Position numbers and translations under genes: made by a program
From: an uncultured Flavobacteriaceae bacterium
Lineage (GTDB): Bacteria > Bacteroidota > Bacteroidia > Flavobacteriales > Flavobacteriaceae
Length of the DNA: 32,834 nt
Reading direction: 5' to 3'
Assembly (NCBI GenBank): GCA_937930675.1
Contig: CALHCC010000096.1
Span: forward strand, 1-32,834
The notes under the pieces: generated by a model
What the model was told of the DNA's origin: nothing
Database searches by the model: none
What the model saw: only the letters and a program-made list of their open reading frames with translations
Shown: in pieces, positions 2,202-13,932 of the stretch
Position numbering within the stretch: the stretch's first letter is position 1
Layout: each line of letters starts with the position of its first letter

Positions 2202-3455
2202 ATGAAACTTATAATTGCTTTAAAAAACAAGTATCTATCACAAGAGAATACCTTTATGTTAAGTGTGTTGTTGGTAAACGCAGGAAACTATATATACAAT
2301 TTAGTATTAGGAAGGTGGTTGGGACCCAAACAATTTTCGGATGCCGCTATTTTAATTACGTTGTTGTTGGTATTGTCTTTTGTAGCAATGACATTTCAAA
2401 TTTCTGTAGCGAGATTTTCGGCAACGTTTCAACAAAAACGATTGCCTGTTTTTTTAACTTATGTCTTAAAAAATGCCTTGTATGTCGGTTTTTTCTTAGG
2501 TTTCATCACTATTGCTTTTGCACATCAATTGCAAGTGTTTTTTAAAACCTCATCTAGCACCATGTTTGTATTATTTGGATGCGGAATTCCTCTGTATTTT
2601 TTGATGAGTGTAAACCGAGGAATATACCAAGGTACCAAGCAGTTTAATAAATTATCCATTACTTATCAAACAGAAATGTGTACGCGGTTGTTGGTTACTT
2701 TAGGGCTTATCTATGTTGTAAAAATAAATTTATCCAATGTAGTAGCGGTGGGTATTGTGATCTCATTATTGGTAGCATTGTTTCCGCTTCAAATAAAATC
2801 ATCCATGGTAAAAACAACTACAAAACTATCGACTCTAGAAAAACAAACGATTCAAAAGTTTTTTGTCATTACAGCATTTTACGAGCTTACGCAGATTGTG
2901 ATTAATAATAGTGATATTTTGTTGGTAAAACATTATTTCGATACCTATCAGGCAGGTTTGTATGCCTCGTTAGCACTAATAGGTCGGGTGGTTTATTTTA
3001 TAGCCTGGATGTTTGTAATGTTGTTATTGCCTACGGTGGTACAGTTAAAAAAAGAAGGGAAACCTACCACACCTGTTTTTGTAAAATACGTAGCCTATAT
3101 TTTATGTATTGCCATTGCTATTGTCTTGATGTGCAAATGGTGCCCCGTATTTATTATTAATACGTTATTTGGGAGTAGTTATGTGAGTATGGCTCCTTTG
3201 CTTTGGAAATATGCTTTGGCTACGGGAATTTTTGCTGTTGCAAATATTTTTGCTTATTATTTTTTATCGTTAGACCAATACTTGCCTGTAATTATATCAG
3301 GAGTATTTGGAGTTTTACAATTGGTGTTTATTGTTTTTTATCACAATACGTTGGCAGACGTTGTGCAAGTACAAATTTATGCCATGTTATTGTTGTTGCT
3401 ATTTCAGTGTGCTACTTTTTGGATGATGAGTCGTAAACAAAAAACAAGAGTTTAA
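2202..3455 (+). CDS. Polysaccharide flippase (Wzx/MATE-like, MOP superfamily)
   Basis: 417 residues, almost entirely hydrophobic, with about 12 predicted membrane segments evenly spread from residue 15 to 405. The N-terminus (LVNAGNYIYNLVLGRWLGPK) matches the opening helix of Wzx/RfbX-type flippases, including the small-residue and GPxxF region; length is normal for the family. Such proteins move undecaprenyl-linked or similar lipid-linked glycans from the cytoplasmic to the periplasmic leaflet of the inner membrane. Its place between a TPR-barrel exporter and a GT4 enzyme supports a glycan-export role. PelG, the flippase-like protein of Pel polysaccharide systems, is an alternative relative, but I cannot show orthology. 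It is probably its own transcription unit, ended by the hairpin at 3599-3633. Confidence 0.8.
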   Translation: MKLIIALKNKYLSQENTFMLSVLLVNAGNYIYNLVLGRWLGPKQFSDAAILITLLLVLSFVAMTFQISVARFSATFQQKRLPVFLTYVLKNALYVGFFLGFITIAFAHQLQVFFKTSSSTMFVLFGCGIPLYFLMSVNRGIYQGTKQFNKLSITYQTEMCTRLLVTLGLIYVVKINLSNVVAVGIVISLLVALFPLQIKSSMVKTTTKLSTLEKQTIQKFFVITAFYELTQIVINNSDILLVKHYFDTYQAGLYASLALIGRVVYFIAWMFVMLLLPTVVQLKKEGKPTTPVFVKYVAYILCIAIAIVLMCKWCPVFIINTLFGSSYVSMAPLLWKYALATGIFAVANIFAYYFLSLDQYLPVIISGVFGVLQLVFIVFYHNTLADVVQVQIYAMLLLLLFQCATFWMMSRKQKTRV

Positions 3456-3598
3456 TCTGTTCTATATTTAGAATTTGATGTGTTAGATTGCGTGAATTTT
3501 GTCATGATAAGGAACAAGATTTGTATCGAAATCAGGTTCTCAATGTTTTACTTCTTTAGATTGGTTTCATTATCCAGTAGTTTTATAAAGATAAAATC

Positions 3599-3633
3599 TC
3601 CGTTTATCGATAGTCCCAATATCGATAAACGGA
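3599..3633 (+). terminator. Hairpin terminator downstream of the flippase gene
   Basis: A perfect 14-bp inverted repeat, TCCGTTTATCGATA and its complement, flanks a 7-nt loop and is followed by a T-rich run (ATTCTTTTTT). It lies 143 nt after the flippase stop in the 291-nt gap before the GT4 gene. Rho-independent termination is the simplest reading. The stem is AT-rich and far from the stop codon, so a different role is possible. Confidence 0.6.
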
Positions 3634-3746
3634 ATTCTTTTTTAGAAGCTGTAATTCATCGATACAAAAAGGGGAGTTGGCTAAAATTTGGCTAAAAGGG
3701 TACGATTCGGTTGCAAATTTATCATAGAATTTAAAATTGTAACCTT

Positions 3747-4961
3747 ATGAAACTAGCCATTGTCACCTCTTATCCGCCAAGTAAAGTAACGTTGAATGAA
3801 TATGCGTATCATTTAGTAAAGCACTTTAGACAAAAAGAAGAAATTTCTGAAATTGTTTTATTAACAGATGAAACACCAGAAGCAAAAGACATCAATTTTA
3901 AAACTCAAGGTTGTAAAATAACAATAAAAGAATGTTGGAAGTTTAACAGTTATAAAAACATGGTTACCGTTACGCAAGCAATCACAGCTATACGTCCAGA
4001 TGCAGTGTTGTTTAATTTACAATTTATGAAGTTTGGAGACAAAAAAATGGCAGCGGCTTTAGGGTTATTGTTGCCTTTGGTATGTAAATTAAAAAGAATA
4101 CCAAACATAGTCTTACTACATAATATTTTAGAAGAAGTAGACTTGGGAACCGCAGGTTTTACCTCTAACAAATGGATGCAAAAAATATATGGTTTTATAG
4201 GGGCAACCTTAACAAAAATGTTATTACAAGCTGATACCGTAGCGGTAACTATGCAAAAATACGTAGATGTATTAGCACAAAAATACAAGGCTACCAATGT
4301 AATATTAATACCACATGGAACTTTTGAAATGGCAGCAGTACCTAATTACAAAACAAAAGCAGGAGCGTTAAAAGTAATGACTTTCGGAAAGTTTGGAACC
4401 TATAAAAAAGTAGAAATGATGATAGAAGCTGTAGAAAAAGTAAGAAACACTACAGGTTTAGAATTAGAAGTAGTAATTGCAGGAACAGACAATCCAAATG
4501 TGCCAGGGTACTTGGCAGGAGTTCAAAAAGAGTACCGTCATGTAAAAGGAGTAACTTTTACAGGTTATGTAGAGGAAGAGGAGGTAGCTCCATTGTTTAG
4601 AGAAAGTGCTGTGGTGGTATTTCCATATACCGCTACTACAGGAAGCTCAGGAGTATTACACCAAGCAGGGAGTTATGGTAAAGCAGTGGTGATGCCAGAT
4701 TTAGGAGATTTGGCACTGTTGGTGCAAGAGGAAGGATACCAAGGAGAATTTTTTAATCCTACCAGTGTAGATAGTTTGGCAACAGCCATTCAGAACATTG
4801 TAACGGACGAAGCGTATAGAGTAGCTTTAGGAAAAGCAAATTACAAAGCGGCTACTGCATTTCCTATGAGTTTGATTACAGATAGGTATGTAGATCATTT
4901 TGAACGTATTATTTTGGAAAAACAAGCTGGACAAACAGCAACAGTCTCTGTTAAGGCATAA
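3747..4961 (+). CDS. Glycosyltransferase family 4 (GT-B fold)
   Basis: 404 residues. The N-terminal Rossmann half starts with MKLAIVTSYPPSK, the usual GT4 acceptor-domain opening with glycine replaced by serine. The C-terminal nucleotide-sugar half begins near residue 207, with FGKFGTYKK at 213-221 and the phosphate/sugar-binding segment TTGSSGVLHQAGSYGKAVV at about 297-315. That segment replaces the commoner EGFGLxxxEAMA motif; the TxxSSGxL form is typical of one GT4 subgroup. No signal peptide or membrane helix is visible, so it should act at the cytoplasmic face. The donor and acceptor cannot be read from sequence. The 3' end overlaps the convergent hydrolase gene by 11 nt. No clear -7 element was found upstream; an 11-nt tandem repeat (unit TTGGCTAAAAT) lies at about 3677-3697. 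Confidence 0.85.
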   Translation: MKLAIVTSYPPSKVTLNEYAYHLVKHFRQKEEISEIVLLTDETPEAKDINFKTQGCKITIKECWKFNSYKNMVTVTQAITAIRPDAVLFNLQFMKFGDKKMAAALGLLLPLVCKLKRIPNIVLLHNILEEVDLGTAGFTSNKWMQKIYGFIGATLTKMLLQADTVAVTMQKYVDVLAQKYKATNVILIPHGTFEMAAVPNYKTKAGALKVMTFGKFGTYKKVEMMIEAVEKVRNTTGLELEVVIAGTDNPNVPGYLAGVQKEYRHVKGVTFTGYVEEEEVAPLFRESAVVVFPYTATTGSSGVLHQAGSYGKAVVMPDLGDLALLVQEEGYQGEFFNPTSVDSLATAIQNIVTDEAYRVALGKANYKAATAFPMSLITDRYVDHFERIILEKQAGQTATVSVKA

Positions 4962-6477
4962 CTAAATATTCAAAAGATTTTTTTCGTTTCCCTTTTTGGT
5001 TGATAAAACCAAAATGTTTTTGATGGTATTTTCTCCAAGGAAGTTTTCCAACAACTTCTTTGGGGATTTTTTTAAAATCGTATAAGGTCCAAGCCATGAA
5101 AGGAATGTGGTGTTTTTTAGCGATTTCCTGAAACCTTTTGTGGTATTGAGCCTGATCTTCTTCTGAGTTTCCAAAAACATTCCAAATACCTCGGTAACTA
5201 GACAGACCAAATTCTCCTATGACAATGGTTTTGTTAGGGATTTTGTTTTTTAGCTGAGCATACTTTTGAGGTAATTCTTGCAACTTTTCGTAATAATGAA
5301 AAGAAACAAAATCCAATCGGTCAGCTAAAATGGAAGCACTTTGCGTATTAGACCACCCGATAGTCACAGGATGTTTGGAGTCTATAGATTTTACATAGGT
5401 AATCATTTGTTTAAGCCAGGCAAGTATTGTAGATTTTCCTCTACTTTCAAAATCTAAATTAGGTTCATTTTTAATATCCCAGGCAAACAAAGTAGGATGT
5501 TCTTTAAGAGCATTTACAATGTGTAAGGCATGTTGGTTGTTTAAGGTCCAATCGCTTACCGAATAATCTCCATAAAAATCAAACAGCGTTACAATGGTTT
5601 TTAAGTTGTTTTGGTGTGCAATGTCTAATACCTTTTTTAATTTCTTTAATTTTTCGGGACGTACTTCCGAAGCTCCAAAATCTTGGTATTGAATAAAAAT
5701 TCGCAGGGTATTGATTCCTGCATCTTTAAGAAGTTCAAAATCTTTATGAATAATTGTTGGATTAAACTTTGTTCCAAACATATCCCATGGAGTTTCTTGC
5801 GGATAATAATTAATTCCCTTTATGGTTGTATCTACAGGAATAGGAGGAAAGGATTCTTTGTGATGTACTGTAGGTTTTATTTTTAAAATTTGTCTTGTTT
5901 TCCAAAAACCATCTTCTAGTAATAATATGTATTGATAGGTGTTGGTTTCAGAAGTTTCAAGAATTAATTGTTTGTTTTTAAACACTCGTTTTACTTCTGT
6001 TACATCGTAATCTGTAAGTTCTATCAATTGACCATCTTCACTAAACAAGTTAATTTCAGGGTGATGATTTAAGGTAGTACTTTCTATAGTAATAGCATTG
6101 TTCGTATTAAAATCTATATATTTTTTTAGCTGAGTTAAAGCATTTTTGGTAAAATAATTTTCTAAACCTTTGGTGGTATTTTTTTCAAAAGCAAGCTGCT
6201 TTACATACCAGCTGTTTAAATAATCTTTTTCTACCAATTTTAAGTTGCTGTTAGAAATGGTTCTTCCTTTGACTTTGGTATTGTTCCATTGTAAAGTAGG
6301 TTGGTAATGTGGTGTTTCGTAAATTTTAGTATGAAGCATTAAATTTTTATCAGCTCCCGTATTTAAGTAGGTAAACACTTTACTTAGGCCTACTAAAGCA
6401 AGCGTAATTAGTAAAATGTAGAAACTTATAAGTACCGTTCTAATAATTAGTTTGGTATAGTGAATACGAATCATCAT
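4951..6477 (-). CDS. Membrane-anchored clan-A glycoside hydrolase (GH5/cellulase-like TIM barrel) with NTF2-like domain
   Basis: 508 residues. One N-terminal membrane segment at about 11-35 (RTVLISFYILLITLALVGL) anchors it in the inner membrane with the rest in the periplasm. Residues about 75-200 look like an NTF2-like alpha+beta domain (DYLNSWYVKQL to DGFWKTRQILKI). Residues 218-508 form a TIM barrel: GINYYPQETPWDMFG, then AGINTLRIF. The proposed acid/base is Glu338 in WDIKNEPN and the nucleophile Glu422 in VIGEFG, the two-glutamate arrangement of clan GH-A. Both catalytic residues are present, so it should be active on a beta-glycan. The ATG overlaps the stop of the upstream gene (ATGA), and the operon has 1- and 4-nt overlaps throughout. 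I infer trimming or quality control of the glycan made by this locus. The substrate and exact GH family are unknown. Confidence 0.8.
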   Translation of the reverse strand: MMIRIHYTKLIIRTVLISFYILLITLALVGLSKVFTYLNTGADKNLMLHTKIYETPHYQPTLQWNNTKVKGRTISNSNLKLVEKDYLNSWYVKQLAFEKNTTKGLENYFTKNALTQLKKYIDFNTNNAITIESTTLNHHPEINLFSEDGQLIELTDYDVTEVKRVFKNKQLILETSETNTYQYILLLEDGFWKTRQILKIKPTVHHKESFPPIPVDTTIKGINYYPQETPWDMFGTKFNPTIIHKDFELLKDAGINTLRIFIQYQDFGASEVRPEKLKKLKKVLDIAHQNNLKTIVTLFDFYGDYSVSDWTLNNQHALHIVNALKEHPTLFAWDIKNEPNLDFESRGKSTILAWLKQMITYVKSIDSKHPVTIGWSNTQSASILADRLDFVSFHYYEKLQELPQKYAQLKNKIPNKTIVIGEFGLSSYRGIWNVFGNSEEDQAQYHKRFQEIAKKHHIPFMAWTLYDFKKIPKEVVGKLPWRKYHQKHFGFINQKGKRKKSFEYLVMP

Positions 6478-7646
6478 GGAATGTTTATTTCTTTATGTTG
6501 GTTAGCCGCATTTATTTTTAAGGTATAAGTGTGTTCAGGACTTAGGTAATTGCCTAGATATACCTTGCTACCACCATTTTCTGTTTGCGTACGTAGTTGT
6601 TTAATGAATTGATGATTTTTAAAAATCTGGATAAAAATCTCCAAACCATCAGGAGCAAATTGATGCATATAACTTTTAAAATCTCCAATAAATAAGGTTT
6701 TATTTTCGGGATGGTATTCAACACGATATTCAGAAATAGCTTCTTTAAATTGAATATCAATAGGTTTACTTTTAGCCATTTCATTCACAAAAGCAGTCAC
6801 TTTCCATTGCTGTTCAAAATCAGGATGAATAATTTTAGCACTTGCAATTCCGTGAATTGTGCTACCATAGGTTTGATGCGTTTGTCCTGTATTCGTTTCC
6901 ATTTTAAAGTTGACCAAAGTACCATCTACCACAATATTGTTGTAAACATCTTTAAGCACAGAGGTAGTAAATGTTACAATTTGATTGCCATCAGCAAAAT
7001 GATGATTTGTTTTGTAAAATAATTTAAAATCAGTAGGCTGATTAGGGGTGATTTCTAAACTGTGCTCTTTGGTGTTTTTGTTTTTACACGTAGCACTAAT
7101 AAACATTCTTCCGCTTTTGGGTTGTGTGTAAATTAAATGGTGTGCCGTCATTCCATCAAAAATAAGTGTGTTTTTTGTTTGTTCGTTTACATAGCCTTGA
7201 TGAATAGTAATAGGAGTGCCTTTAGGTAAAGGATTGTCTAAACGGTCCAAGGGTATGGTTACTAGCATGGCATAATCTTGCGTTCCTGCCAGTAAACTAG
7301 GAGGTCCTAAATAGGTTTCTATGTTGGCTACGTTTTCTAAAGGAGAAATGTAAAAAGAGCCTTTGTTGTTTTCTGTGTTTTCTGGAAAACTCCAATGAAT
7401 CCATCCACTTTTTTTAGAGATAAAATCAGGAATGTGATAGGTAACTATGTCTTTTTGAATTTGGGGAATTAGTAAGGTATTCCCATAGCTAGAATGGATG
7501 TATAGCGGCTGTGCTTGTTTGTTAGTAGCTTTGAATTGGAGGTTTATTTTTTGCCCAGCTTGGTACGTTGTACGCGTGTTTTTTTGAGCAACCATGTTAC
7601 TGGCAACTAGAATGATAAAAACGATATGTGTTAAATAAAATTTCAT
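6474..7646 (-). CDS. Exported beta-sandwich protein of unknown function
   Basis: 390 residues with a signal peptide, MKFYLTHIVFIILVASNMVAQ, cut near residue 20-21; no lipobox, so probably soluble periplasmic or secreted. The body is beta-rich. A middle segment (about 225-300, VTFTTSVLKDVYNNIVVDGT to WKVTAFVNE) resembles bacterial Ig-like, invasin-type domains, in which DxxNNxVxxGTxV is a common turn. The N-terminal part also reads as beta-sandwich. No catalytic motif is visible. The start overlaps the stop of the GT-C gene by one base (TAATG) and its stop overlaps the hydrolase start, so the three are translationally coupled. I infer a periplasmic scaffold or glycan-binding partner of the hydrolase and GT-C protein; the function is not recognised. 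Confidence 0.75.
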   Translation of the reverse strand: MKFYLTHIVFIILVASNMVAQKNTRTTYQAGQKINLQFKATNKQAQPLYIHSSYGNTLLIPQIQKDIVTYHIPDFISKKSGWIHWSFPENTENNKGSFYISPLENVANIETYLGPPSLLAGTQDYAMLVTIPLDRLDNPLPKGTPITIHQGYVNEQTKNTLIFDGMTAHHLIYTQPKSGRMFISATCKNKNTKEHSLEITPNQPTDFKLFYKTNHHFADGNQIVTFTTSVLKDVYNNIVVDGTLVNFKMETNTGQTHQTYGSTIHGIASAKIIHPDFEQQWKVTAFVNEMAKSKPIDIQFKEAISEYRVEYHPENKTLFIGDFKSYMHQFAPDGLEIFIQIFKNHQFIKQLRTQTENGGSKVYLGNYLSPEHTYTLKINAANQHKEINIP

Positions 7647-10600
7647 TAATAAGGAATTCCAGTATACGTATTTACTTCTATTTTAATAAAAGGGATGTGT
7701 GGTAGGTTTGTTTTTATAAAAGATAATTTTTCTTGATTAGAAGGTTGTGTATTGTTAGGCAATCCGTTTACAAAACAATGTTCTAGGCTACTATTAATAA
7801 TCTGTACATCATTGAGTGAAGGTAATGGATGCGTAAAGTTTAATTTACGTTGTTGTCGTATTCCCGAAATTAGAAATTGATGGTCTACATTAATTAATTC
7901 TTGTTGTTGGTTGTAGTAAGAAATAATTAGCTGAGGTATGGTGGCTTCTGAAGTTCCACTATTGTAGAGTGTTCCTGTGAGGTACTTGGAATGTATATTA
8001 ACATTGCTAATGGCTGTTTTTTTATACAAATCCGTTCCTGTTACATTTCCAGCAGCATGCAAATCAAACTTTGTAGGAATGTCAGCAAAGTCTACAGGAG
8101 TAAATTCTTTGGGGTTAAATGTTTTTGGACTTTTGTCTGTCGCTTTTAGCCAAGCAATTCCTTCAAAATCTATTTTAAAAGAAGTTATTTCTTTAGGCAG
8201 TAGTTTGTGTTTTAGAACATCTTTAGCACTATAATTCCCCAACTTTACGTTGTTATGATTGTATAAAGTAGCATTTAAAACCACATCAGCAGGTGTATTA
8301 TCGATATTTTGAATTTCTCCAATCATATAAAATTGCTCCTTTTTTTTGATGAGCCTGGCACTCAAAATACGGAGTTTGGGTTGTTTTAATATATCTTCAT
8401 GATGTGTTTGTTCTGTAGTAATTCTTCGTCGTCCTTGGTTGTGAAATTTAGGAATGTTTTCTACATACAATTGATCGGGAGGAAGGTCTTTGTTTTTTTC
8501 TTCGACATTTACATACCATTTTTTATGTATTTTTTCTAAATCTTTAAAGCAACTATCTTTTATAATTTCTAATGCGGTAATCCATTCGGTGTTTACTTTA
8601 ACCGTAGCTGTAGTGTCTGTTTGTTTTACCACATTTACGGTAATAGCCTCCATTTTTGCATAAGAACTTAACAAACCATCTGTTACCGAAATTTCTAACA
8701 TGTACTGATCCATGCCAATATCATTCTTAGGATTTATCAAATGATAGGCTTTTTTAAATCGTTTAAAATCCAAATGATCAAAATAAGCGAGCGTTGCATT
8801 CGTAGGAGTTCTTTGTGCATCGTTTTTAATATAAAATAGATAGCAAGAATAGGCGATGATACTTAGCAGTACTACTGCCCAACCTTGTAATACCATAGCT
8901 AATTTCCAAGGTTTTTTGTAAACGTATACCAAACTTGTAGAATGTTTCTTCTGAACTACTTTTTTAATTTTAAAAGTTCTAGAAACCAGTGTTTGCAAAT
9001 TTAAAATAAGGGCAATAAACGCCGTTAATAATGGAACCACTCCCCAATGAATTTTTTGCCAAGTGGCAACATCTATTCTAGGTAGTATTACTCCCATGGG
9101 AGGAATATTGAGTTTTTCCCAAACCATAATTCCGTTTTCCAATTGTCGTAATCGTTGCCAACCACAGAAGTACAAAACAGGATCGTAGAATTTGTCGTTA
9201 GAAAAAATGTATTTAAGATGGTATTTTTCGGGTACGGTTAAAAATTGTTGTAAAGAACCTAAGCCTTCAATTCCTTTAAACTTAGAATTTTCTAAACGCT
9301 CTATGGCTCTTGTGGTTAACTCTGGCAATCGTCTTGCAGAATGATAATTTCCGTCCACACTCAATGCTTGTGTATTAGAACCCAACCAAGCCATTTGATC
9401 GCCAAACCCTAATGTTAAATATCTCCATTGATCATGCTGATCTTGGTTTAAAAAGTTAACAATGGGTAACATTTTAATTTTAGCAGGTTGCGAAGGTCTA
9501 AAATAACCCAAGCTAATGGTAAACACCGCCATAAACAGAAATAGAAAAGCCAAAACTCCTCCAAGAATTCTATGGTAAACAGCACTTGTTTTTTTCTGAA
9601 TGGCTTGTTTTATATCTCCTTCTGCAAATCTGTATATAAATTCTCCTGTCATGGGAATGGCCATAATGGCTGCCCATAACGTAAATCTATCTAGGGTGAG
9701 AATATTAAACGCGTTGGCTCCTAAAATTAATTTAGGCAGGGGAGTAGTACCACCTGTACCCAATAAGGTTAACATAGAAATAGACAAACCAAAGCAAATA
9801 AACTTTTTACTGTAATACCTGTAAAATACATACGGAAGTATAAAAAGTAAAATTCCCCATGGAATCACAAAAAAGGCCAATCCAGAAGAAGTAACCTCTA
9901 AAAAATGATCTCTAGATCCGTGTGGAATAGGGACTTGCGTAATGGGGTTGTTCTTGGTGTTGATCCAATACGGAAGTAAACAACTGATGATCATAAACAA
10001 GGATGAAATTCCAAAAGCTAAAATTCGTTTGAATAATTTTTTAAAGGACGTTAAAAAGTGTATAAAAGTTACTTGTTTTAAATCTTGAGTTTCTTGTGCT
10101 GCCATTTCTATCACCGCGGTACCTATTAACGGAAAAATAAAGAATACCATTCCAAAAATGGGAGTTACATGGTGTGACGTTACGGTGACAGAAATAAGCG
10201 AAATCGCCTTAAAAAAATACTTAAGCTTTCCTCTGGTGAGCCATAAATATATTTCGGGTAAGGCATGACACAGAATAGAAAGCCCAATAATACTAGGTAA
10301 CTGACCAAATAAATGTAAGGTTTCTATAAAAGTAGAAGAGAGGATGGCAACAAGAGCAGCATACCCCGCTGAGGTTCGGTTTTGAGTGATTAAAAGAGAA
10401 AATCGATAGATACCTGTAATAAAAAGAACAACTGCAATAAGAGTTAAGCTAAACAGTCCAAATTTTAATCCGCCTATTAAAGACAATAAGGCAATGGATT
10501 GATGGACCAGTGGCGGATAACTCATTACCGTAAAACCTGTGTACCATTTAAAGTTCCAAGGTTCAAACCAATTATGTGCATAATGATCGGCAAAAAATAA

Positions 10601-10726
10601 ATGAATCAAAGCATCATAGGTAGTTTCTAGGGTAAAGAACATAGCGGTTCCATGAAAAACCAACCCTACGAGTAGGGCTACAATTAAATACTTGTTGGTA
10701 TTAGGCTTCATGATTCTTTTTCGCAA
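7646..10726 (-). CDS. Large polytopic GT-C-like membrane protein (PTPS-related domain) with NTF2-like and FxLYD-like C-terminal domains
   Basis: 1026 residues. Residues 12-430 hold about 10-12 membrane helices. The first large loop carries ETTYDALIHLFFADHYA (34-50) and WYTGFTVMSYPPL (61-73), which match the '6-pyruvoyl-tetrahydropterin synthase-related' membrane family; that family resembles GT-C glycosyltransferases, and Asp38 would be the candidate catalytic acid. Residues 431-555 are soluble. Two more helices follow (about 560-580 and 608-632), then an NTF2-like domain (about 640-745) and two Ig-like domains (about 785-865 and 900-985); the first, with MIGEIQNIDNTPADVVLNAT, resembles FxLYD. 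The role is inferred: transfer of a polyprenyl-phosphate-linked sugar to a glycan on the periplasmic side. It is first gene of a three-gene operon. Met6 is an equally good start. Confidence 0.7.
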   Translation of the reverse strand: MRKRIMKPNTNKYLIVALLVGLVFHGTAMFFTLETTYDALIHLFFADHYAHNWFEPWNFKWYTGFTVMSYPPLVHQSIALLSLIGGLKFGLFSLTLIAVVLFITGIYRFSLLITQNRTSAGYAALVAILSSTFIETLHLFGQLPSIIGLSILCHALPEIYLWLTRGKLKYFFKAISLISVTVTSHHVTPIFGMVFFIFPLIGTAVIEMAAQETQDLKQVTFIHFLTSFKKLFKRILAFGISSLFMIISCLLPYWINTKNNPITQVPIPHGSRDHFLEVTSSGLAFFVIPWGILLFILPYVFYRYYSKKFICFGLSISMLTLLGTGGTTPLPKLILGANAFNILTLDRFTLWAAIMAIPMTGEFIYRFAEGDIKQAIQKKTSAVYHRILGGVLAFLFLFMAVFTISLGYFRPSQPAKIKMLPIVNFLNQDQHDQWRYLTLGFGDQMAWLGSNTQALSVDGNYHSARRLPELTTRAIERLENSKFKGIEGLGSLQQFLTVPEKYHLKYIFSNDKFYDPVLYFCGWQRLRQLENGIMVWEKLNIPPMGVILPRIDVATWQKIHWGVVPLLTAFIALILNLQTLVSRTFKIKKVVQKKHSTSLVYVYKKPWKLAMVLQGWAVVLLSIIAYSCYLFYIKNDAQRTPTNATLAYFDHLDFKRFKKAYHLINPKNDIGMDQYMLEISVTDGLLSSYAKMEAITVNVVKQTDTTATVKVNTEWITALEIIKDSCFKDLEKIHKKWYVNVEEKNKDLPPDQLYVENIPKFHNQGRRRITTEQTHHEDILKQPKLRILSARLIKKKEQFYMIGEIQNIDNTPADVVLNATLYNHNNVKLGNYSAKDVLKHKLLPKEITSFKIDFEGIAWLKATDKSPKTFNPKEFTPVDFADIPTKFDLHAAGNVTGTDLYKKTAISNVNIHSKYLTGTLYNSGTSEATIPQLIISYYNQQQELINVDHQFLISGIRQQRKLNFTHPLPSLNDVQIINSSLEHCFVNGLPNNTQPSNQEKLSFIKTNLPHIPFIKIEVNTYTGIPY

Positions 10727-10764
10727 TTTCTTATAGACTAAATATACTATAAAGTTTTGGAGCT

Positions 10765-10905
10765 CTAAAAGTTAATTCGTCGAACTTTTGTCCGTTTATC
10801 TACTTTGTTGGTATCGATGAAAGAAATGGATGGAACATAAAAATTCATTGGTCTAAACAAAGCTACAACTGGTCTAATAACTTGAAAGTAAGCCTCAGTT
10901 CTCAT
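10765..10905 (-). CDS. Doubtful 46-residue ORF upstream of the GT-C gene
   Basis: An ATG at 10905-10903 opens a 46-codon frame to TAG at 10767-10765, 38 nt before the GT-C start. The product begins MRTEAYFQVIRPVVALF and ends in a basic tail, TKVRRINF. It has no recognised family. A consensus -7 element (10858-10865) lies inside this ORF, so if that promoter is used, the ORF is not on the transcript. I give it as a candidate only. Confidence 0.2.
   Translation of the reverse strand: MRTEAYFQVIRPVVALFRPMNFYVPSISFIDTNKVDKRTKVRRINF
10858..10865 (-). promoter_or_regulatory. Candidate -7 element for the GT-C/hydrolase operon
   Basis: On the minus strand this reads TAGCTTTG, an exact TAnnTTTG match, about 130 nt before the GT-C start. 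No TTG is seen at the -33 distance. It would give a leader of roughly 120 nt. Confidence 0.4.
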
Positions 10906-10938
10906 GTAATTTTAAGGTATCATTAAAATCAAAATATT

Positions 10939-11694
10939 ATGAAAACTGGAATCATCATACCTTGTTATAACGAAGCAAACAGATTGGCTGTAGCTACTTT
11001 TATTAATTTTGCAAACACACATCAAGACTATCATTTATGTTTTGTGAACGATGGGAGTTCTGATCACACGTTAGAAGTTTTACAAAACATAGAACAAGCA
11101 TGTTACGGAAATGTAAGTACCATAGATGTTAAAATAAATGCAGGAAAGGCTGCTACTGTTAGAACAGGAGTGAAATATTTAAATAGAATGAAGACCATAA
11201 ATACTATAGGGTTTATGGACGCAGATTTATCTACAGACTTTAACGATTTTAAAAACTTGGTGACTACCTTAAGAAATAATGAAGATTTGTCTTTAGTATA
11301 TGGTTCTAGAGGAAAAGGAGAAGGAGCTATTAAGAGAACTGTTTTTAGAAGCCTATTTTCTAAAATGGTAAAAATGATTGTGTTTTTAATTTTAGGATTG
11401 CCTATTGAAGATACACAATGTGGAGCCAAAGTATTTAAGAAAGAAATTATAGGAGTAGCCTATGGTAAAAAGTTTTTAACGCGTTGGTTGTTTGATGTAG
11501 AAATTTTTATGAGATTAAAAAAATACTACGGACAACAACAAATTATGAATAAAATGTATGAGCAACCTTTACAAAGATGGGAACATGCAGAAGATTCTAA
11601 ACTAGGTGTAAAAGATGCTTTGAAAATACCGTATATGTTATTGTCTATTTGGTTTTCGTACAATTTTAATTCACTAGTATATACCATTTCTTAA
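10939..11694 (+). CDS. Family 2 glycosyltransferase, dolichyl/polyprenyl-phosphate sugar synthase type
   Basis: 251 residues, GT-A fold. The N-terminus GIIIPCYNEANRL, the NDGSSD nucleotide-binding stretch (37-42), the metal-binding DADLS at 94-98 (DxD equivalent) and DTQCGAKVF at 158-166 are hallmarks of the Alg5/DPM1-like GT2 branch. These enzymes make polyprenyl-phosphate-linked glucose, mannose or related sugars at the cytoplasmic face. One hydrophobic stretch at about 144-156 may sit against the membrane; the C-terminal membrane pair found in GtrB-type enzymes is absent. Divergence from the operon encoding a GT-C-like protein fits, because GT-C enzymes use lipid-phosphate sugars as donors. 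The sugar is not determinable. Upstream TTG at 10882-10884 and TAATTTTA at 10907-10914 (one mismatch, 22-nt spacer) form a weak promoter candidate. Confidence 0.88.
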   Translation: MKTGIIIPCYNEANRLAVATFINFANTHQDYHLCFVNDGSSDHTLEVLQNIEQACYGNVSTIDVKINAGKAATVRTGVKYLNRMKTINTIGFMDADLSTDFNDFKNLVTTLRNNEDLSLVYGSRGKGEGAIKRTVFRSLFSKMVKMIVFLILGLPIEDTQCGAKVFKKEIIGVAYGKKFLTRWLFDVEIFMRLKKYYGQQQIMNKMYEQPLQRWEHAEDSKLGVKDALKIPYMLLSIWFSYNFNSLVYTIS

Positions 11695-12008
11695 ATATTT
11701 TGTCAATATAATCGAAATATGCATTTTTCTTGAAAATGAATTACTCCAATTATTCTTTATAATTTCATTTTAATGGAAATGGAAAATACTGCTTTTAGCT
11801 TTTAGTAGTTATTTTTTGAATGTATTGAGTTAATAATAGTTGAAAAAGAAATCCCAAGATTTATTAGATTTAAATCTTGGGATTCTATTCTTGATCTTAT
11901 TTTCCAAATATATTTTGAAAATTCTGTGTAGAATTGTATCTATATAATAGCAAATATTGTAACATTTATTATAAATTGACTACTACTACTACTATTAAAA
12001 ATACAAAT
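11695..12008. other. Intergenic region between convergent genes
   Basis: 314 nt between the GT2 and outer-membrane barrel stops. It holds the hairpin at 11850-11884 and a short trinucleotide repeat, (ACT)5 at 11979-11993. No ORF with coding character and no RNA gene was seen. Confidence 0.7.
11850..11884 (+). terminator. Hairpin terminator after the GT2 gene, possibly bidirectional
   Basis: A perfect 14-bp inverted repeat, AATCCCAAGATTTA and its complement, surrounds a 7-nt loop and is followed by a T-rich stretch. It lies between convergent genes and could stop both. It has the same 14-7-14 geometry as the hairpin at 3599-3633 with unrelated sequence. Confidence 0.7.
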
Positions 12009-12700: not shown

Positions 12701-13474
12701 TTATATTTTTTCTAATACAGTTCTACCATTCAATGGTTGAATAGGTCGTGCATTAATGTTGTGTGTTTCCTCAAATTTAGCGATTTGTTCTATTGAAACA
12801 TCTACCTTGTCTTTTAACAAAATCCATCTTAAACCCTCAGTACACGGAGGTGTAGTTAAAGAACCTGTATAAGTATAATAGTTACGATTTGACGGTAAAA
12901 GATTATCTAAATCTATAGTTGTAGTTGTAGTTATTTCATTATTTTCTGTAGATGGAAAATTCTCTAAATAAGATTTAATAAAATTATTAGGAGTTGTTCC
13001 ATTAGCATTTAACATAATACCTACAACTGCTAAATTTTTAGTAATTGGATCTTGATGTACTAGATGTATCTCCATTTCATCTGTTTCTCCATCAATTTCA
13101 TGTTCACTATGTGTGTGATAATGAAATTGTAAGAATTCATAAGTTATACCATCAATAATCATATTGTTGGTTTTTGCAGCATCTCTATTAACCTGTACTG
13201 TATGACCGTTATCAACAATTTTAATATCAAAAGCATTGTAGTCAAAAGTTATATCTGATAGATTTACCGACTTTATAGTCTTTGTAGTTTCGATATTGAT
13301 TGGAGTTTGAATGACACCACCACAATCAGTATAACCTGAATTTTGCCACACTGTATTTTCATAATTCCACTCTGGAGAATTTCTTTCAACTGTTACTTCT
13401 TCTTTTTGACAAGAGGATGCTAAAATTCCTGAAATTGCAACCACTAAAATTGGCAATAAATAATTTTTGTTCAT
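12701..13474 (-). CDS. Alpha-class carbonic anhydrase, predicted surface lipoprotein
   Basis: 257 residues. It interconverts CO2 and bicarbonate using zinc. Zinc ligands are His118 and His120 (QFHYH) and His137 (MEIHLVH). Glu124 (SEH) and Thr207 (GSLTTPP) match the catalytic Glu-Thr gate, and QTPINIE (56-62) matches the family's QSPINI. Cys51 and Cys211 are placed to form the disulfide typical of secreted bacterial enzymes. The N-terminus is a lipoprotein signal ending ILASSC, with acylated Cys22 followed by QKEE. This resembles the Q-K-D-D-E lipoprotein export signal described for Capnocytophaga surface lipoproteins, so the enzyme is probably on the cell surface. It heads a two-gene operon with an outer-membrane barrel. 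Length is normal and all catalytic residues are present. Confidence 0.92.
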   Translation of the reverse strand: MNKNYLLPILVVAISGILASSCQKEEVTVERNSPEWNYENTVWQNSGYTDCGGVIQTPINIETTKTIKSVNLSDITFDYNAFDIKIVDNGHTVQVNRDAAKTNNMIIDGITYEFLQFHYHTHSEHEIDGETDEMEIHLVHQDPITKNLAVVGIMLNANGTTPNNFIKSYLENFPSTENNEITTTTTIDLDNLLPSNRNYYTYTGSLTTPPCTEGLRWILLKDKVDVSIEQIAKFEETHNINARPIQPLNGRTVLEKI

Positions 13475-13932
13475 TTCTATTTTTTTTTTAATGAACGCGA
13501 ATATATTTTTTTTTTAGGGAAAAACTAAATATTACTAGTAATATTTAGTTTTTAGAACGTAAATTTATTTTGTGTTTTACACTAAAAATAAGTCTAAGTT
13601 TATTATGAATTTATTGTTTTAAATCGTTTTGTGGTTAATGCGAGGAGATTAAAATTCTAAGATTGGATTATTTAAATAAACCTAAGCATTTTTTTCTTCG
13701 TTTGTGTCTTCTAATATTTTGCTAGCAGGATAAGATAACAACCAGTATGAGTATAGGAATGTTTTCTTAGGTGTATTTTCCTAATTAAATTACAAATCCT
13801 CGTTTTCATATGTATATCATAGTATTAGTAATGGAAATCTATGCTTCGTTTTTTTTATTTATTGTTAGTCATAAAGCTAGGGTTAATTTACTGACTAATT
13901 TTGTTTTTTAGGTTAAGTGTTTTTGAATGTGT
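13475..13932. other. 458-nt intergenic region upstream of the carbonic anhydrase
   Basis: It contains two 10-nt T tracts (13480-13489 and 13506-13515), the 34-bp palindrome at 13520-13553 and a plus-strand TAATTTTG at 13896-13903 that faces into the DUF389 gene. No TAnnTTTG was found on the minus strand before the carbonic anhydrase. A 33-codon hydrophobic plus-strand ORF (13810-13911) is not convincing. No RNA gene was recognised. Confidence 0.6.
13520..13553. repeat. 34-bp perfect palindrome upstream of the carbonic anhydrase
   Basis: The half-site is AAAAACTAAATATTACT, followed by its exact complement; the centre is ACTAGT at 13534-13539. There is no spacer. It lies 46 nt before the carbonic anhydrase ATG. 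It could be an operator for a dimeric regulator, or a terminator for the DUF389 operon 380 nt upstream. The stem is very AT-rich, which weakens the terminator reading. Confidence 0.75.

Follow-up and report, generated by a model that had tools for sequence, protein, structure and literature searches.

A lipoprotein-type alpha-carbonic anhydrase with a candidate surface-export motif in a Flavobacteriaceae genome

The window analysed here is a stretch of 32,834 nucleotides from the genome of an uncultured Flavobacteriaceae bacterium. It contains the complete gene of an alpha-carbonic anhydrase (CA), whose identity and exact boundaries had already been given in a preliminary description of this DNA; the gene is read from the minus strand (Table 1). 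The protein matches the Pfam family Carb_anhydrase (PF00194) over residues 41-255 with 158.3 bits (cut-off 27, E 3.6e-46), and a search of the same protein against NCBIfam profiles gave no match. The closest solved structure is the CA of Persephonella marina (6im0, E 1.2e-41). An AlphaFold model of moderate confidence (pLDDT 68.7) served for fold assignment alone: its best structural matches were bacterial alpha-CAs, with 5hpj at the top of the Foldseek list (E 1.2e-18). Residues H91, H118, H120, E124, H137, T207, T208, C51 and C211 are invariant in family alignments of seven and eight sequences. By human CA II numbering we take H118, H120 and H137 to be the zinc ligands, T207 and E124 the gatekeepers and H91 the proton shuttle. 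The enzyme looks catalytically competent, its activity being a prediction. It shares the fold family, the zinc-site and TTPPC motifs and the conserved cysteine pair with the CAs of P. marina (6im0), Neisseria gonorrhoeae (1kop/1koq) and Photobacterium profundum (5hpj), but differs from these bacterial enzymes in carrying a lipoprotein signal followed by residues that resemble an export signal.

Table 1. Features at the carbonic anhydrase locus (positions in the window)
Feature	Coordinates	Strand	Basis
Alpha-carbonic anhydrase, lipoprotein precursor, 257 aa	12701..13474 (read 13474 to 12701)	-	PF00194, 6im0, Foldseek 5hpj
Signal peptide II, residues 1-21 (MNKNYLLPILVVAISGILASS)	13412..13474	-	Translation, rule-based lipobox
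Cys22 (presumed acylated) with export-signal-like QKEE (+1 to +5)	13397..13411	-	Translation, fit to C-X-K-(D/E)2
Outer-membrane beta-barrel protein, 228 aa	12009..12695	-	PF13568, 29.3 bits (cut-off 27)
Terminator-like hairpin beyond the barrel gene, seen on both strands	11849..11885		
Perfect 34-base palindrome (17+17, loopless), beginning 46 bases ahead of the CA start codon; candidate operator	13520..13553		

The palindrome upstream of the CA gene was considered as the operator of a regulon and rejected: a search for the central 24 bases, with up to three mismatches allowed, found a single site in the window's own genome. The region adjoining the CA (2202-11694) holds, by eye, genes of surface glycan synthesis, among them a flippase-like gene at 2202 and a glycosyltransferase-like gene at 3747. 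In this region a glycosyltransferase (10939) and a glycosidase-like protein (4951) have Pfam support; the 1026-residue product of 7646-10726 matched no Pfam family.

None of six same-genus genomes gave a match to the CA, so the gene is accessory in its genus. A lipoprotein-SDR-SprT-DUF389 block is common to all five same-genus stretches compared (in the sixth genome, G006, the block lies at a contig edge and was left out), and the CA, the barrel and GT2 had no match in these five stretches of about 13.4 kb. An insertion with visible borders is not supported. The content past DUF389 is similar in three of the five stretches and differs in two, and this comparison does not discriminate between acquisition by the window's genome and loss from the others of the genus. 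All six other genomes possess one or two beta-CAs (PF00484), and in one inspected genome the beta-CA adjoins a SulP-type transporter gene. The window's genome (G000, 85.6% complete) has two SulP transporters and no PF00484 match; at this completeness the missing beta-CA may be an assembly gap. Loss of the cytoplasmic enzyme is not claimed, the corresponding locus having been checked on the two SulP contigs only.

The CA translation opens with MNKNYLLPILVVAISGILASSCQKEEVTVERNSPEW. The signal has a charged N-region, a hydrophobic core and small residues ahead of the cysteine, and ends in LASS directly before CQKEE; C22, invariant in both alignments, is followed by QKEEV. Lipoproteins were called throughout with our own rule, not with SignalP, and under this rule the lipoprotein nature proposed in the preliminary description is borne out. 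Surface lipoproteins of Capnocytophaga canimorsus share the consensus QKDDE at +2 to +6, which brought a periplasm-facing lipoprotein to the surface when added to it and has C-X-K-(D/E)2-X as its optimum (Lauber et al. 2016, PMC5080379). In the same work the consensus derived for SusD proteins of Flavobacterium johnsoniae was SDDFE, so the form of the tag varies inside the family. A 2025 study (PMC11885536) that used the SiaC reporter in F. johnsoniae located a sialidase with the lipoprotein export signal (LES) at the cell surface and grouped lipoproteins according to the tag, so the prediction of location from the tag is accepted practice. CQKEEV agrees with the LES definition, either as C-X-K-(D/E)2-X or as a pair of acids preceded by a polar or basic residue, right after the cysteine. 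The likeness to QKDDE that had been pointed out earlier is thus upheld: the start corresponds to the published optimum, is retained in the nearest relative and is frequent in two branches of the family tree (below). Like the QKDDE lipoproteins of C. canimorsus, MucG and SusD-type LES lipoproteins, the protein has a cysteine followed by X-K-(D/E)2 at optimal spacing. It differs from known LES lipoproteins in its cargo, a carbonic anhydrase, and its surface location is predicted from sequence.

On the evidence that follows, the CA is probably exposed on the cell surface. The first alternative, which we consider unlikely, is that it is an outer-membrane lipoprotein facing the periplasm, in the same compartment as periplasmic alpha-CAs elsewhere in Gram-negative bacteria, and that QKEE is acidic by chance. 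Alpha-CAs of Gram-negative bacteria are usually assumed to be periplasmic. They are also described in this way in PMC5617987, which speaks for the alternative. Against it stands the agreement of the CA motif with the measured optimum.

As a control, 36% of the window's genome was searched (713,767 of its 1,972,886 bases), and 631 long frames yielded 42 rule-based lipoproteins, some of them likely false, such as a permease. The motif C-X-K-(D/E)2 was found in one of the 42, the CA itself, which is the protein under test. From the position frequencies in the other 41 N-termini it is expected in 0.65% of lipoproteins, or 0.27 per 42, and with one seen the motif by itself is therefore only suggestive; it exceeds chance because of its pattern among relatives. 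Two or more acids at +2 to +6 were present in nine of the 42 (CA included), and none or one in the remaining 33. Besides the CA, the nine include a SusD-like protein that scores above the Pfam cut-off (CDDVTDD, contig C128), the protein next to it (CDDELED) and a further SusD-like candidate that falls short of the cut-off (CSKDLD). SusD-like proteins are of a type expected at the surface, so the CA groups with a probable surface set. These three starts have the acids in common with CQKEEV of the CA but not C-X-K-(D/E)2, and the lysine form of the tag is unusual for this genome. That its own SusD-like protein has a tag without lysine is a point in favour of a periplasm-facing CA. Two proteins of a same-genus genome, SusD-like by context, begin with CEEFLD and CSFDPE and are likewise acid-rich without lysine.

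Of 397 genomes sampled across the family, 49 encode PF00194, that of the window among them; G111, G148 and G347 (broken or partial frames) and three partial second matches did not enter the protein set. With the CA protein as query, matches came from 20 of 395 genomes drawn from the order and from 15 of 395 drawn from the phylum, the draws overlapping. The 77 loci encode 72 distinct proteins; a cysteine was assigned in 64, of which 11 have at least two acids at +2 to +6. The rule overlooked lipoboxes visible by eye in L049, L077 and L171; the cysteine was placed by hand for L171 in the second tree and in the position control described below, and for L049 in the position control. A single-protein search of named-genome contigs confirmed no relative. 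In an alignment-based scan of named genomes, the best 80 of 581 loci were retained; 16 of these are from Bacteroidota, nine of them tagged. The nearest relative among these 80, L170 from a Saprospiraceae MAG, is 55-58% identical to the CA and starts with CKKEEETTQ. Retention of the same motif at this distance argues against acidity by chance. Among the same best 80 of 581 loci, 43 of 48 Pseudomonadota relatives lack a lipoprotein signal by the rule.

For the phylogenetic analysis a protein was labelled as tagged if it had two or more acids at +2 to +6, a threshold fixed after the N-termini had been viewed. The second tree comprises 92 proteins (77 labelled, 20 tagged); from the best 80 of 581 loci it takes the 16 Bacteroidota in full and a selection of 13 others. 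L081 is absent from both trees, and L010, L045, L051, L056, L071, L075, L078 and L080 are absent from the second. In the first tree, built before L170-L172 were available, the window's CA formed a long branch (2.18) in a seven-member group with six tagged members (95/91). In the second tree it moved from that group to L170, L171 and L172 (98/95), and three of these four are tagged. A further branch of 13 proteins (97/90) contains 12 tagged ones.

Two other branches are devoid of tags. One comprises 11 proteins (100/95), some of them from Chlorobiota, Calditrichota and KSB1, with none tagged. The other is the main Flavobacteriaceae-type branch of 43 proteins (98/91), in which none of the 41 labelled members is tagged (none of 42 with one hand-placed cysteine). 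Its members resemble the window's CA in having an alpha-CA domain behind a lipoprotein signal, but they form a separate supported branch and none of the 42 has two acids at +2 to +6. Pooled, 15 of 17 proteins are tagged in the two tagged branches, one of which holds the window's CA, against none of 53 in the two untagged ones. The latter count favours the periplasm-facing alternative, since it makes a lipid anchor without surface display common in the family. With the 41 labelled members of the main branch, the Fisher value for the contrast is 2.4e-13, which is not a true probability because related proteins are not independent. The tag label changes six times on the tree against a shuffled mean of 17.9, and none of 500 shuffles was as low.

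The pattern has exceptions. In the window's own branch L171 begins with CQRSV and lacks a tag, as would be expected more readily of a periplasm-facing lineage, and in the branch of 13 L057 has a single acid (CEKNQ). Five tagged proteins (L006, L069, L070, L073 and L082) lie outside the two tagged branches. The strict form C-X-K-(D/E)2 is found in two of four members of the window's branch and in one of the 13 (3/17 in total), and a neighbouring acid pair at +3 to +6 in two of four and ten of 13, respectively. On the tree the branch of 13 pairs with the 11 untagged proteins (99/98); the deeper placement of the window's branch is weak (61/75). The sisterhood of the tagged branches is unsupported, which makes several gains or losses of the tag in the alpha-CA family probable. 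The family seems to be split into untagged branches, presumably facing the periplasm, and tagged ones, presumably facing the outside.

The strongest evidence for a tag comes from the position of the acids. At +2 to +6 the mean number of acids is 1.75 in the window's branch and 2.54 in the branch of 13, against 0.82 and 0.60 in the untagged branches. At +7 to +11 the means are 1.00 and 1.54 against 1.00 and 0.86, and at +12 to +16 they are 1.00 and 1.15 against 1.18 and 1.10. The excess in the tagged branches peaks at +2 to +6 and has vanished by +12 to +16, which speaks against a periplasm-facing protein that is acidic by chance; some of it spills past the tag positions, as the 1.54 of the branch of 13 at +7 to +11 illustrates. 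This control is limited by the post-hoc threshold, the kinship of the proteins, the exceptions L171 and L057 and the rarity of the lysine form.

The beta-barrel gene begins five bases past the CA stop codon on the same strand and is probably co-transcribed with the CA. This arrangement, together with the terminator-like hairpin past the barrel gene, would suit a functional pair of CA and barrel, such as an enzyme supplied with a dedicated outer-membrane pore. Such a pair is nevertheless highly improbable: the barrel had weak matches in two of 59 other genomes, one of them of the same genus but with the match at another genome position, and the 11 loci tested around related CAs yielded nothing significant (best E 0.19). 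The same results led to the rejection of a conserved operon partner of the CA. At eight of the 11 loci the neighbouring genes look mutually dissimilar (compared by eye over the first 60 residues; one locus is a 3-kb contig). The single-sequence structure model of the barrel was useless (pLDDT 31.3). The protein weakly resembles AcfA-family barrels (20.9 bits, cut-off 100).

Least probable of all is that the CA reaches the outside chiefly on outer-membrane vesicles or by shedding and acts away from the cell: Helicobacter pylori vesicles are reported to hold an alpha-CA (PMC6327981) and surface exposure and vesicle packing of Bacteroides lipoproteins are called coupled (PMC6222051), but sequence cannot separate this route from plain surface display, which it would extend.

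Under the preferred reading, that of a surface-exposed CA, the protein would be exported by Sec, acylated at Cys22 and transferred to the exterior side of the outer membrane through the Bacteroidota route that recognises QKEEV at positions +2 to +6. In the film of water around the cell it would then accelerate the reaction CO2 + H2O = HCO3- + H+. The most likely benefit would be the conversion of respired CO2 to bicarbonate with damping of pH, or the continued availability of inorganic carbon for uptake. Both CO2 disposal with pH damping and the supply of bicarbonate to uptake systems are plausible, and any role of the CA beyond the equilibration of CO2 and bicarbonate would be conjectural. 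Nothing in the sequence supports carbonate precipitation, which the preliminary description had also suggested.

More broadly, and tentatively, lipid-anchored alpha-CAs of Bacteroidota may have split into periplasm-facing and surface-facing lineages through repeated gain or loss of the tag. The surface lineages would then provide bound external CA, and the tag would be an address label readable from genomes at the level of the family. If the tagged branches face outside, Bacteroidota could alter CO2, bicarbonate and pH wherever they settle on a surface, and might contribute to external CA activity in nature. The family also offers a natural experiment on the export tag: its tagged and untagged branches have one enzyme fold in common, and external activity is easily assayed.

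The enzyme and the tag are each known already. No proposal of tag-bearing surface alpha-CAs in Bacteroidota was found in the open-access literature as covered (titles and starts of abstracts, in part), which leaves absence from print unproved. In a marine bone microbiome, four of 94 carbonic anhydrases were predicted to have SPII signals (PMC7883544). These four differ from the window's CA in coming from Beggiatoales and Campylobacterales, and the available portion of that paper does not mention an export signal.

Two minor observations concern other CAs. In L150:5036-5974, a CA from the tagged branch of 13, about 40 residues are inserted ahead of the YYTYSGSLTTPPC motif. Two genomes from another family of the order encode distant alpha-CA lipoproteins, L153 and L154, which start with CHSDKDE and CSKDDD; genes close to them resemble, by eye, those of ribosomal proteins and elongation factor G.
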